Below, piece by piece: positions 33,924 through 36,983 of a stretch of DNA of 37,106 nucleotides. The notes under the pieces were generated by a model that saw nothing but the letters and a program-made list of their open reading frames with translations, ran no database searches and was not told where the DNA came from. The stretch spans positions 1 through 37,106 of the forward strand of contig JAPHSS010000054.1 of assembly GCA_026195255.1 (NCBI GenBank). The letters are read 5' to 3'. The position numbers and the translations under genes were made by a program. Source of the stretch: Gammaproteobacteria bacterium. GTDB lineage: Bacteria > Pseudomonadota > Gammaproteobacteria > SZUA-229. Position 1 is the first letter of the stretch. Each line of letters begins with the position of its first letter.

Positions 33924-34577
33924 ATGAAATTTATATATCTTTTGCCCTTCCTGTTATGGCTCAGTTTATTGCTTAGTGCCTGCACAACGATTCAGGAAAA
34001 AGATCAGACAACTGAACCCGCCAGCTGGAAACAGCAGCAGAAAACACTTGGCCAGCTGCAGAGCTGGGCTATCAATGGTCGAATATCGGTGCAAACAGAA
34101 ATTGAAGGTGGTCAGGCTGACTACCTTTGGCAGCAACATAATAAAACCGATTATGATATTCGCCTGCAGGCACCCATGGGCGCAGGCACCACACTTATTG
34201 AAGGTCGTTTAACAGGCGTGAGTTTGAAAACCTCATCCGGTGATGAGTTGTTTGATACAGACGTTGATAAATTAATGTTAAGGCTAAATGGCTGGCCAGT
34301 GCCGGTGAGTGGTTTGCAATATTGGGTAAAAGGTTTACCCGCACCCGGCAGCCCGTTTGAAATTAATAAGTGGAATAAAACAGGCTTGCCTGCGGTGATG
34401 CTGCAGGATGGCTGGCGCATTGAGCTTAGAAAATATAAAAAGGTTGGTGAACTGAATTTACCAGGTAAGTTATTTATTAACAGGCAGAATGGCGAAGAAG
34501 TAGATGTGCGATTAATTATTCGCCAATGGCAGCCGGGCTTAAATAAAGCTGGAATCAAAGCAGCTGGAATCAAATAA
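33924..34577 (+). CDS. lolB: Outer-membrane lipoprotein receptor LolB
   Basis: LolB takes lipoproteins from LolA and inserts them in the outer membrane. From the ATG at 33924 it has 217 residues. It has a signal peptide ending in LLLSAC (C20 from this start) and then the LolB barrel: WAINGRISVQTE, ADYLWQQ, IRLQAPMGAGTTLIEG, and GWPVPVSGLQYWVKG, followed by QDGWRIE. An upstream in-frame GTG at 33891 would add 11 polar residues and lies inside a hairpin, so I prefer the ATG, although no strong ribosome site is visible. The stop overlaps the ispE start (TAATG). The C-terminus has a short repeat, AGIKAAGIK. Confidence 0.93.
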   Translation: MKFIYLLPFLLWLSLLLSACTTIQEKDQTTEPASWKQQQKTLGQLQSWAINGRISVQTEIEGGQADYLWQQHNKTDYDIRLQAPMGAGTTLIEGRLTGVSLKTSSGDELFDTDVDKLMLRLNGWPVPVSGLQYWVKGLPAPGSPFEINKWNKTGLPAVMLQDGWRIELRKYKKVGELNLPGKLFINRQNGEEVDVRLIIRQWQPGLNKAGIKAAGIK

Positions 34578-35458
34578 TGTCTAGTTATAAATTCTGGCCC
34601 GCACCGGCCAAGTTAAACCTGTTTTTACAAATCACCGGTCAACGAGAAGACGGTTACCATAACCTGCAAACCGTATTTCAGTTTTTAGATGTAGGTGATC
34701 GTTTACGTTTAGTGCAGCGTGATGATGGCAAAATTCTACGCAAAACAGACACAGAAGGCGTAAAAGCTGAAGATGACCTGGTGGTAAAAGCCGCCAGAGC
34801 ATTACAGAAAGCCGCCGCCACAGATAAAGGTGTCGATATCTATGTGCAAAAAATACTACCCATGGGTGGCGGTGTAGGCGGCGGCAGCTCAGACGCAGCA
34901 ACCACACTGGTGGTTTTAAACCAGCTATGGGAAACCGGCCTCGATGTTTCAGCTCTGGCCGAAATTGGCCTAACCTTAGGGGCCGATGTGCCAATATTTA
35001 TTCACGGCCACGCGGCATTTGCACAGGGCATAGGTGAAAAAGTGGAAGAAGTTTCACCCGCAGAACCCTGGTATTTAGTTGTTCACCCGGAAGTTCATGT
35101 AACAACATCTGAAATTTTTAACAATTCGCAATTGACACGAGACTGTCAAGCCATCAGAATATGCGACCTTCAAATCGGCACTGTAAATGAAGCAGCAAAA
35201 TTTGATGAGTTAGGGAATGTGTTCGAGCCAGTAGTTGCCAGACAACACCCTGAAATAGCTGAAGTTATCCAGCACCTCAGAAAATTTTCAGACGCCAGGC
35301 TAACCGGAACCGGTGCATGCGTATTCGCCGCATTTGAAAGTAAAGAAGCCGCACAGGAAGTGTTAGCAAAACTGCCAGATGACTGGACAGCTTTTGTAGC
35401 TAAAGGTTTGAATAGGTCACCGCTTCAAGTTATGCTTGCGGCTGAAGAAAGTGACTGA
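34577..35458 (+). CDS. ispE: 4-diphosphocytidyl-2-C-methyl-D-erythritol kinase
   Basis: A 293-residue GHMP kinase of the MEP isoprenoid pathway, phosphorylating CDP-ME with ATP. PAPAKLNLFLQITGQREDGYHNL (about 8-30) carries the conserved lysine. The phosphate-binding loop is LPMGGGVGGGSSDAATTL (about 93-110). LTLGADVPIFIHGHAAFAQGIGE (about 132-154) and RLTGTGACVFAAF (about 239-251) complete the fold. It is coupled to lolB by TAATG and followed by tRNA-Gln and prs, a conserved order. Confidence 0.97.
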   Translation: MSSYKFWPAPAKLNLFLQITGQREDGYHNLQTVFQFLDVGDRLRLVQRDDGKILRKTDTEGVKAEDDLVVKAARALQKAAATDKGVDIYVQKILPMGGGVGGGSSDAATTLVVLNQLWETGLDVSALAEIGLTLGADVPIFIHGHAAFAQGIGEKVEEVSPAEPWYLVVHPEVHVTTSEIFNNSQLTRDCQAIRICDLQIGTVNEAAKFDELGNVFEPVVARQHPEIAEVIQHLRKFSDARLTGTGACVFAAFESKEAAQEVLAKLPDDWTAFVAKGLNRSPLQVMLAAEESD

Positions 35459-35506
35459 ATAAAATTATCAACTATATTGGTAGAGTTGAAAAATTAAAAA
35501 GTTTAT

Positions 35507-35577
35507 TGGGCCGTCGCCAAGCGGTAAGGCAACAGCCCAAAAAATAGAAAATCGATCCTGTCATGCGGAGGTTCGAA
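35507..35577 (+). pseudogene. Broken tRNA-Gln copy
   Basis: Positions 35507-35535 are identical to the first 29 nt of the intact tRNA-Gln at 35748, and the identity extends 9 bp upstream. The anticodon-loop segment ggttt is replaced by an unrelated stretch (cccaaaaaatagaaaatc). gatcctgtcatgcggaggttcgaa then matches again, and the T-arm is cut off. A T-arm-like remnant (cgaataatcctcccgg) appears 126 nt further on, at about 35703-35718. With no acceptor 3' strand and a destroyed anticodon arm, it cannot be a functional tRNA. Confidence 0.8.
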
Positions 35578-35729
35578 AAAATCGTCAGGAACGATTTTTA
35601 ACAATGATTGCTTTTTAATCATTGGCCCCGAAGGGAATGACAACAGGGTTAAATGTCGACCGATTATCATTCTATCGGTGGTGTGATTGGGCAGGGATAG
35701 CCCGAATAATCCTCCCGGTGGTAGGGAGG
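35548..35729. repeat. Series of four hairpins between the tRNA copies
   Basis: The successive inverted repeats are: aaaaatcgt/acgattttt (35577-35585, 35591-35599; also a longer imperfect pairing of 35548-35560 with 35586-35598); caatgatt/aatcattg (35602-35609, 35617-35624); accgat/atcggt (35659-35664, 35674-35679); and cctccc/gggagg (35711-35716, 35724-35729). There is no credible coding frame. It may be a hairpin-rich insertion in the damaged tRNA copy or a structured RNA. Confidence 0.5.
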
Positions 35730-35747
35730 ATGGAAAGCAAAGTTTAT

Positions 35748-35822
35748 TGGGCCGTCGCCAAGCGGTAAGGCAACAGGTTTTGATCCTGTCATGCGGAGGT
35801 TCGAATCCTCCCGGCCCAGCCA
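35748..35822 (+). tRNA. tRNA-Gln (anticodon TTG)
   Basis: A complete cloverleaf: acceptor tgggccg/cggccca, D-stem gcc/ggc, anticodon stem acagg/cctgt with loop ttttgat (anticodon TTG), T-stem ggagg/cctcc with ttcgaat, discriminator g at 35819 and an encoded CCA (35820-35822). The total is 75 nt with CCA. It reads CAA. Its place between ispE and prs is conserved in many gammaproteobacteria. Confidence 0.96.
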
Positions 35823-35860: not shown

Positions 35861-35906
35861 GTAGGTGCGATTTCAATCGCACAAAGTGCCCAAAAGGCAC
35901 ACCTAC
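35861..35906. repeat. Cloverleaf-like palindromic repeat
   Basis: An outer stem gtaggt (35861-35866) with acctac (35901-35906) encloses two hairpins: gtgcgat/atcgcac (35865-35871, 35876-35882) and gtgcc/ggcac (35886-35890, 35896-35900). The form resembles REP-like gtaggtgcg palindromes found between genes in gammaproteobacteria. It is non-coding. Confidence 0.6.
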
Positions 35907-36023: not shown

Positions 36024-36983
36024 GTGAACGAAAACAACTCCGAGTTGATGATTTTTACCGGTAATGCCAATCCGAAACTGGCCCGCCGCATAGCCTCGCA
36101 CCTACATATTTCCCTTGGTAAATGTACTGTTCAAACCTTTAGCGATGGCGAAGTCAGCGTTGAAATTGAAGAAACGGTGCGTGGTCGTGAAATATTTATA
36201 ATTCAGCCAACCAGTCAGCCCAGCAATGACCATATTATGGAATTGATGGTGATGATTGACGCACTACGTCGTGCATCGGCTGAGCGAGTCACCGCGATTG
36301 TGCCTTATTTTGGTTACTCCCGTCAGGATCGTCGCCCCCGCTCAGTACGTGTGCCGATTACCGCTAAAGTAGTCGCCAATATGCTTGAAAGCGTTGGTTT
36401 AGATCGAATTTTAACGGTAGACCTGCATGCAGACCAGATTCAGGGTTTCTTTAATATCCCCGTCGATAATGTATATGCATCACCGATTCTATTAGGTGAT
36501 GTCTGGCGCCAGCGTCACGATAACTTACTCGTAGTTTCACCCGATGTGGGTGGTGTAGTGCGCGCCAGAGCTTTAGCAAAACGTTTGGGTGATGCAGATT
36601 TGGCGATTATCGACAAACGCCGTCCTAAAGCGAATGTATCTCAGGTTATGAATATTATCGGTGATGTAGAAGGCAAAAACTGCGTGCTGGTTGATGACCT
36701 GGTAGATACCGCCGGCACACTGTGTAAAGCCGCTGCTGCATTAAAAGAGCACGGCGCAATCAGTGTTTCAGCCTATTGTACCCACCCGGTATTATCTGGC
36801 CCGGCTATCGATAACATCACCAACTCAGATCTTGATGAGCTGGTAGTAACCGATACCATAGCACTAACAGAAAGAGCCAAGGCCTGTGGCAAGATACGTC
36901 AGTTATCTATAGCAACCATGCTGGCAGAAACAATTCGTCGAATCGACCAGAATGAATCAGTTAGCTCCATGTATATGGATTGA
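36024..36983 (+). CDS. prs: Ribose-phosphate pyrophosphokinase
   Basis: A 319-residue enzyme making PRPP from ribose 5-phosphate and ATP for nucleotide, histidine, tryptophan and NAD synthesis. [23 protein letters not shown] (about 37-59), [10 protein letters not shown], and [12 protein letters not shown] are family signatures. The PRPP-binding loop is [17 protein letters not shown] (about 222-238). The start is either GTG at 36024 (319 residues) or ATG at 36048 (311); the first gives a length closer to E. coli (315), but neither has a clear ribosome site. It follows tRNA-Gln in conserved order and ends at a strong terminator. Confidence 0.97.

Follow-up and report, generated by a model that had tools for sequence, protein, structure and literature searches.

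A hairpin repeat unit homologous to the core of E. coli tRNA-linked repeats lies in the T-loop of an interrupted tRNA-Gln copy

RESULTS

An interrupted second copy of tRNA-Gln lies upstream of the intact gene

The window (the whole stretch of DNA analysed, 37,106 nt, from contig JAPHSS010000054.1 of a gammaproteobacterial assembly) carries a tRNA-Gln locus between ispE and prs, with the following features. A slash in a sequence below marks the border at which a unit stands or would stand.

34577..35458, + strand: ispE, the upstream neighbour (TIGR00154, 287.3 bits)
35498..35535, + strand: start of copy 1, a 9-nt leader plus the 5' 29 nt of tRNA-Gln, identical to 35739-35776 (repeat search)
35536..35553, + strand: 18-nt replacement CCCAAAAAATAGAAAATC for the 5-nt GTTTT in the anticodon arm (sequence)
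35554..35576, + strand: anticodon-stem 3' strand, variable region and T-arm of copy 1 as far as GGTTCGA, identical to the intact gene (repeat search)
35577..35708, + strand: whole T-loop insert, 132 nt, which holds a hairpin unit of the TLR/RtT type (cmsearch with models R1 and R2)
35709..35718, + strand: T-arm 3' half of the interrupted copy, ATCCTCCCGG (repeat search)
35709..35731, + strand: 8-bp hairpin of ATCCTCCC with GGGAGGAT (fold)
35748..35822, + strand: intact tRNA-Gln, anticodon TTG (ARAGORN; Rfam tRNA, 62.9 bits)
36024..36983, + strand: prs (ribose-phosphate diphosphokinase), the downstream neighbour (NF003428, 570.3 bits)

An earlier sequence-only reading saw here two copies of tRNA-Gln, the first of them destroyed by two insertions, and our analysis agrees. 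The reported duplication of the 5' 29 nt together with 9 nt upstream, 241 nt apart, is an exact 38-nt direct repeat (100% identity, 35498-35535 versus 35739-35776, spacing 241). Both interruptions are also real: 18 nt of CCCAAAAAATAGAAAATC (35536-35553) stand where GTTTT was in the anticodon arm, and the T-arm is split by the 132-nt insert at 35577-35708, with its remnant ATCCTCCCGG resuming at 35709. The borders of this insert were set by comparison with the intact T-loop. The reading was correct about the 5' 29 nt but overlooked a second exact block of 24 nt, GATCCTGTCATGCGGAGGTTCGAA, shared by 35554-35577 and 35782-35805, so that copy 1 is more complete than it had supposed. Since this block of anticodon stem and T-arm is kept, along with an exact 11-nt block (AATCCTCCCGG) common to the T-arm 3' half and the intact gene, copy 1 is a nearly whole tRNA-Gln interrupted twice. 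Its first block takes in the 5' acceptor strand, the D-arm and half of the anticodon arm. Its acceptor 3' strand is gone after ATCCTCCCGG, and the remnant is followed by an inverted copy of the T-arm end, with which it forms the hairpin at 35709-35731; a similar arrangement is found in loci L010 and L011. ARAGORN and Rfam (gathering scores) call the intact gene alone as a tRNA, leaving copy 1 uncalled. Elsewhere in the window we observed a REP-like palindrome at 35861-35885 (TAGGTGCGATTTCAATCGCACA), which has matches at several places in relatives, and a tandem heptamer, ACTCACG, that runs from 37060 to the contig end at 37106.

The T-loop insert holds a member of a four-hairpin repeat family

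A BLAST search of 58 genomes with the locus as query, the genome of the window among them, matched the insert at many other places. We aligned 17 single units chosen by pattern (MAFFT, window copy excluded), and used two covariance models. R2 was built from the unit letters of 17 rows alone, with no tRNA letters, no window copy and no E. coli row, and R1 is a model with flanks that includes T-arm letters. The R2 match starts exactly at the insert border, 35577 (48.7 bits, E 3.1e-9 over the whole genome), and R1 matches the insert with a genome-wide E of 1.5e-10, which together indicate that the insert is not chance sequence. The parts of the insert are as follows.

35577..35599, + strand: hairpin H2, 9-bp stem with loop CAGGA
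35603..35623, + strand: hairpin H3, variable stem
35624..35635, + strand: hairpin H4, GGCCCCGAAGGG
35577..35657, + strand: plain unit of 81 nt in the R2 placement (R2, 48.7 bits)
35658..35708, + strand: 51 further nt after the plain unit (R1 and R2 parses)

The repeat unit is about 70-90 nt long with four hairpins, the fourth being 35639-35657 under the R2 placement. In order, the consensus has a stem of 9 bp (loop CNGGA), AAC, a stem that varies between units, GGCCCGAAGGGC, GGA, a further stem whose loop is AGGA, and finally GGAGTA. Among the 17 aligned units 97.9% of cells are paired, 17 of 24 pairs show double changes, and none of 500 shuffles reaches four of the five covariation measures (the fifth, pair types, is reached in 17/500). 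Sliding the partners by 1-3 columns lowers pairing to 30-41% in these units. Fitting 43 units to the model gave similar values, with 97.1% paired, four measures at 0/500 and pair types at 11/500 shuffles. The region 35500-35747 folds 4.2 sd below shuffles. The 51 nt that follow the plain unit end in a hairpin at 35689-35703 (GGGC AGGGATA GCCC) and GAATA, the usual unit end; they are either a decayed second unit or, by the longer R1 parse (35571-35713), the result of 53 nt inserted between H4 and H5.

The complementarity between 35548-35560 and 35586-35598 that had suggested a template switch or hairpin origin of the insert is present (13 nt, 92%). The segment 35586-35598 falls on the loop and the 3' arm of the unit's first hairpin, which is paired in 100% of cells in the 17 aligned units. 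In this one sequence the reported pairing can compete with that hairpin, the duplex being calculated at -12.7 kcal/mol, versus -5.7 for the hairpin alone; the pairing appears in the MFE fold of 35500-35747 and is absent from that of 35507-35731. The proposed origin is not supported, the insert being a member of a repeat family that is dispersed and has a covarying structure of its own, and we have dropped the template switch in favour of that family.

The unit is widespread in the family and class

In the genome of the window, R1 gave 34 matches at E ≤ 1 and 27 at E < 0.01 (three of the 27 being training rows), and R2 gave 26 at E ≤ 0.01 with the same three training rows included. All 54 family genomes examined, counting this one, have between 1 and 76 matches at E ≤ 0.01. 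In the class, at least 159 of 369 genomes (this one counted) carry a unit at E 1e-4, and in the phylum at least 73 of 397 at 1e-5, 30 of them outside the class and 27 of these 30 in one family. All copy numbers are lower bounds, with 150 candidates scored in the genome of the window, 81 per family genome and 11 per genome at class and phylum level, and given these few candidates some genomes without a match may be misses. A strict 23-nt pattern occurs in at least 119 stretches of named records. Among the matches listed, carriers include Dyella, Rhodanobacter, Thioalkalivibrio, Dokdonella, Idiomarina, Bowmanella and Parahaliea, as well as single MAGs labelled Acidobacteria and Eremiobacteraeota (labels as recorded and unchecked). 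The exact pattern had no match in viral_contigs, a strict test that says little on phage origin.

The sequence-only reading had set a conserved RNA in relatives against a tRNA duplicate. Both are present: tRNA-Gln copies and a conserved unit. A second tRNA-Gln 5' part lies upstream in 11 of 31 tRNA-Gln loci of relatives by alignment score, and in two further loci by pattern. By our reading, 10 of the 13 upstream copies have an enlarged anticodon loop, with letters that vary among genera and are comparable to, but different from, the replacement in the window. Enlarged D-loops were likewise seen in L030, L073, L091, L026 and L035. In a genome of the same genus (G001, locus L015), 17 of the 18 nt of the replacement are shared and no unit lies upstream; therefore the duplicate and its anticodon change are probably older than the T-loop insertion.

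Homology to E. coli tRNA-linked repeats and the rrnB spacer

TLR/rtT repeats were described in 1978 and their function is mostly unexplained (PMC8144298). When applied to E. coli K-12, R1 matched the rrnB T1-T2 spacer (67.7 bits), the four rtT copies of tyrTV (34.4-47.8) and two places at argQ (29.3 and 23.5), these matches falling in three of the eight E. coli stretches given. R2 scored the rrnB T1-T2 spacer at 68.8 bits, the four rtT copies at 21.9-34.7 and the two argQ places at 27.9 and 19.3. Because R2 keeps the same seven places, the kinship is independent of shared tRNA letters. Judged by sequence and structure models, the window unit and the core of the E. coli tRNA-linked repeats (TLR) are homologous.

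The window unit resembles these repeats in several ways. R2 finds the E. coli rtT, the rrB and the window unit alike, indicating a shared core hairpin unit. By position the window unit lies within a tRNA operon, its insert ending 39 nt before tRNA-Gln on the same strand. In E. coli rtT, too, the unit is flanked by GGTTCGA and ATCC of a T-arm. There are also differences. In TLR, 18-19 bp at the 3' end match the gene immediately upstream and the unit is downstream of its tRNA, whereas the window unit is upstream of the intact tRNA, inside a nearly whole interrupted copy, and is followed by only 10-11 nt of tRNA 3' part. Relatives such as L013, L015 and L016, among others, have 18 nt of tRNA 3' end and units downstream of their tRNA. 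Many units of this genome also lie away from tRNA genes. The Rfam RtT family (RF00391, gathering score 45 bits) has no match in the window at that score, and none at E ≤ 1 in the window locus (L001) or in the whole genome of the window. It gave full-length matches below the threshold in relatives (L038, 40.6 bits; L016, 39.4; L010, 36.2; L015, 28.4) and none in the other seven non-E. coli sources scanned. Given the Rfam threshold and the departure from the 3'-end rule we do not file the window unit as an RtT member. It is best read as a unit of the TLR/RtT type in the T-loop of a tRNA-Gln copy, which is a new placement and a much wider range for a known repeat family.

The strongest E. coli match by R2 (68.8 bits) corresponds to the rrnB copy of the RrA/RrB/RrF sRNAs, which lie between the rrn terminators T1 and T2. 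Like the window unit, the rrnB copy has GGA-bearing loops, in its case in H2 and H5. It differs in lying behind 5S rRNA, and in that CsrA binding, which we can only suppose for the window unit, is reported for it (PMC8144298). The same source places rrB conservation within the order Enterobacteriales and notes that the rrnB T1-T2 spacer is present on many plasmids. In two other sources, rttR is entered as REP-containing (PMC12306157) and an rtT length variant is recorded (PMC2658671). Our literature search, of mainly open-access text and in part of each source, found no report of TLR-like units outside Enterobacteriales or as mobile.

Units share borders at tRNA T-loops and also lie elsewhere

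To describe unit positions we used a set of 108 units, comprising 83 of 95 R1 rows and 25 of 43 further rows; the 12 and 18 rows left out include, for the R1 rows, cut ends and the same place in overlapping loci. In this set 82 units lie at most 600 nt from an intact tRNA, 80 of them on its strand. This proportion is inflated, because T-arm letters are part of R1 and the loci fetched were its best hits. With R2, 9 of 26 units in the genome of the window are at most 600 nt from a tRNA or tmRNA gene, 7 of them on the strand of that gene. At least 9 nt of the 3' flank equal the 3' end of the nearest tRNA in 50 of the 108 units, the tRNAs concerned being Gln, Arg, Pro, Tyr, Val, Asp, Lys, Ser and Glu. 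These flank letters change with the neighbouring tRNA, being ATCTCTCTACCCCGACCA for Pro, GTCCCGTCCGGTCCGCCA for Asp and ATCCTCCCCCCTCCACCA for Tyr, which indicates that they belong to the target and not to the unit. Many units stand at TTCGA/ATCC of T-loops. When the unit was removed in silico, a tRNA was predicted across the junction in 7 of the 108 (Pro twice, Ser twice, Gln, Val and Arg); all seven have a degraded 3' end, and the window copy is not among them.

These data bear on a plain pseudogene explanation, in which a tandem duplicate of tRNA-Gln decayed through insertions that are unrelated and belong to no family. Consistent with such decay, copy 1 is not called as a tRNA, has neither acceptor 3' strand nor anticodon, and adjoins an intact tRNA-Gln. 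However, the T-loop insert is one of a family of covarying units present in 54/54 family genomes examined, and several other tRNAs show this T-loop border as well. As a whole this explanation is very improbable; it is refuted for the T-loop insert and may hold for the 18-nt replacement in the anticodon loop.

Units are also found at other kinds of site. They interrupt the D-loop of partial tRNA-Ser copies at GGCTGA/unit in L054, L055 and L086, and palindromes such as that of L047 (CATACCCGA/unit/ATGCTTGTGTCGGGTATCC). Tandem units occur in L024 and L010, and one unit lies inside another in L029. The tandem arrays of L025 and L038 repeat a tRNA 3' end. Several features of individual loci were recorded. 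In G000:C25:73069-73483 (L054, L291), about 165 nt past a csrA domain match, a unit in a broken tRNA-Ser D-loop is followed by an intact tRNA-Ser. At about 1350-1500 of L004 (G000:C25), a tRNA-Ser 3' end, a terminator palindrome and an inverted tRNA 3' end form a large palindrome before the unit, and inverted T-arms are found ahead of many downstream units. A TwoAYGGAY RNA (Rfam RF01731, 44.9 bits, threshold 43) lies at L047:1656-1782 (G000:C64), 74 nt from the unit. In the genome of the window a subgroup away from tRNA genes (L057, L059, L062, L063, L311, L315 and L316) has the 3' border GTAGTA/AATG, and may be a separate lineage with another target.

A tyrosine integrase acting at tRNA 3' ends could also be considered, with small circles of unit plus tRNA 3' end integrating to give direct repeats and tandem arrays. 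This would account for the exact 3' end, from T-loop to CCA, carried by TLR-type copies (at least 9 nt in 50/108) and for its repetition in the arrays of L025 and L038. It does not account for the units of IS91 genes, palindromes and D-loops, which come without a tRNA 3' end, for the 17 of 26 units of this genome that are not near a tRNA or tmRNA gene, or for the window unit itself, which is upstream of the tRNA and has lost the 3' end. We regard it as decidedly unlikely.

Filled and empty sites

IS91-type genes provide three unit sites with filled and empty versions in different contigs. The sites, together with the 5S end of E. coli, are listed here.

IS91 site A: empty GGTTCGA/AGATGAC; filled GGCTCGA-unit-ACATGAC
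IS91 site B: empty GATGCCGA/ACACCC; filled GATACCGA-unit-ACACCC
IS91 site C: empty CCTGGA/TTTTATC; filled GATGGA-unit-CTTCATC
E. coli 5S end: empty GTAGGGA/ACTGCC; rrnB copy TAGGA-unit-AACTGCC, two bases off

At the IS91 junctions, sites A and C are one base off and site C reads GA/T. Units were found in the IS91-type transposase genes of L154, L179, L184, L193 and L245, antisense at two of the three sites and sense at one; the identity of these genes rests on Pfam matches in L179 (Zn_Tnp_IS91, Y2_Tnp) and L154 (Y2_Tnp), to which the others were joined by BLASTP. The inserts counted, one per site and two at site B, are each 71 nt, and the idea of in-frame insertion into IS91 was dropped on account of this length. 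The palindrome CCCGA/ATGCTT is filled in L047 and empty at nine places of the genome of the window, and the window T-loop, compared with that of the intact tRNA-Gln, counts as a further pair. Empty and filled versions of sites are thus found between genomes or between paralogous copies, rather than between strains of one species.

From the comparisons at IS91 genes, the 5S end and the palindrome, we read the insertion as being mostly after GA, with no clear target duplication. In the genome of the window, the 5' flank ends in GA for 11 of 26 units, or 14 of 26 when a one-base shift is allowed (R2). A group of units with ..GCA before and AATG after departs from the GA rule. Near-identical scattered copies occur at eight places in G291 and seven in G171. 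The units of G291 (L252-L258) are near-identical, 72 nt long, and lie inside a longer dispersed repeat that starts near TTAACGTGAAAG and contains a CCCTCTCCC...GGGTGAGGG palindrome. The location of eight near-identical copies within the larger repeat suggests that this composite, including the unit, has spread as a whole. General targeting of hairpin loops was rejected, as the test for complementary flanks was not significant (463/2000 permutations for 25 sites of this genome, 182/2000 for 76 non-redundant sites out of 83 rows); single hairpin-loop cases stand (T-loops, D-loops, L047, L048 and L052). Overall, the filled and empty sites and the insertion mostly after GA point to a mobile unit.

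Search for a mobilising gene

A Y1 transposase (RAYT) was considered as a resident mobiliser and rejected, no unit being near any of the eight Y1_Tnp hits of this genome. In the 22,653 bases around these hits (seven of them over the cut-off), R1 had no match at E ≤ 1, and Y1_Tnp is absent from three of 25 chosen unit-bearing genomes (G607, G633 and G714), each 100% complete. REP/BIME elements with RAYT are likewise small, palindromic and dispersed, and some REPs are reported to lie within other palindromes (PMC3733652). They differ from the unit in having one tagged palindrome instead of four hairpins, and the units of this genome do not flank a Y1 gene as REPs do. A screen of neighbouring genes grouped 2886 ORFs near 123 pattern matches, in the 119 named stretches listed, into 130 clusters, and no recurrent candidate was found among the larger clusters examined. 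The three largest (60, 16 and 9 loci) mostly cross the unit itself, with 202/270, 30/35 and 9/9 ORFs overlapping it. In the 8-locus cluster and in one of the 5-locus clusters, two members each were identified as ABC transporters and histidine kinases. The second 5-locus cluster corresponds to the IS91 gene, present as a target.

GGA-bearing loops and CsrA

In the window, GGA is found in the loop of H2 (CAGGA) and of the hairpin at 35689-35703 (AGGGATA). Among 43 units outside the family, one of which is at the place of a training row, GGA is present in the loop of H2 in 36, H5 in 33, H4 in 12 and H3 in 2, counts that lean towards GGA since the hits were chosen by a model containing GGA loops. 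A csrA gene is present in this genome. According to PMC8144298, three TLR copies bind CsrA, the rrnB RNA (RrB) binds CsrA in vitro, and an RrB mutant in three GGA motifs gives no CsrA shift in the tested range. By analogy with RrB, it is plausible, and a lead, that the unit may be a CsrA-binding RNA. Alternatively, the like loops of H2 and H5 may mark the two ends of the unit for a moving enzyme.

These observations would also fit a functional RNA that came first, namely an RrB-like RNA titrating CsrA/RsmA that was selected in stable-RNA transcripts and spread by duplication or gene conversion without being mobile. The GGA loops of H2 and H5, the reported loss of the CsrA shift in the three-GGA mutant and the compensating pairs by which the stems vary all argue for it. 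Against it, units occur within IS91 genes and at scattered places far from any tRNA, G291 and G171 have near-identical scattered copies, GGA loops are missing from the four rtT copies of E. coli, and PMC8144298 gives prediction scores below 0.01 for the 19 tRNA-operon TLRs. We consider this explanation unlikely, although less so than the integrase.

DISCUSSION

We think it quite probable that the T-loop of a second tRNA-Gln copy (35507-35718) was entered at TTCGA/ATCC by a mobile multi-hairpin unit homologous to the rtT/TLR core. We base this on the observed homology, the paired structure, the tRNA borders, the same border at several other tRNAs, and the filled and empty sites. The unit would move by a transposition-like event through a putative enzyme and, when inside a stable-RNA gene, would survive only if an intact gene is also left. 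The stretch of 18-19 nt from the tRNA 3' end by which TLR are defined would then represent the tRNA sequence that follows the insertion point, this hallmark arising because the unit inserts into the T-loop of a second copy. Copy 1 might be transcribed together with the tRNA-Gln precursor, and the hairpin loops in it that carry GGA could perhaps bind CsrA, by analogy with what is published for the rrnB copy.

The small dispersed repeats of cyanobacteria and the double-hairpin elements of Allomyces mitochondria are likewise very small, form hairpins and insert into genes for structural RNAs, in other organisms. More tentatively, as a proposal somewhat short of an even bet, TLR/rtT may be a single branch of a miniature mobile element, about 70-90 nt long and made up of four hairpins, that has spread over Gammaproteobacteria and one or more other classes of the phylum. 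Such an element would insert often after GA, among other places in tRNA loops, 5S copies and palindromes, with no clear target duplication and by means of a putative enzyme, and would seed CsrA-binding GGA hairpins into stable-RNA transcripts.

Overall these results place the rrnB T1-T2 spacer in the same family as the tRNA-linked units, extend the range of the unit well beyond Enterobacteriales, and give the tRNA-linked repeats a testable origin. If the unit is mobile, it would be a very small element able to use structural RNA genes as landing sites, and it may carry CsrA-binding hairpins into tRNA and rRNA transcripts.
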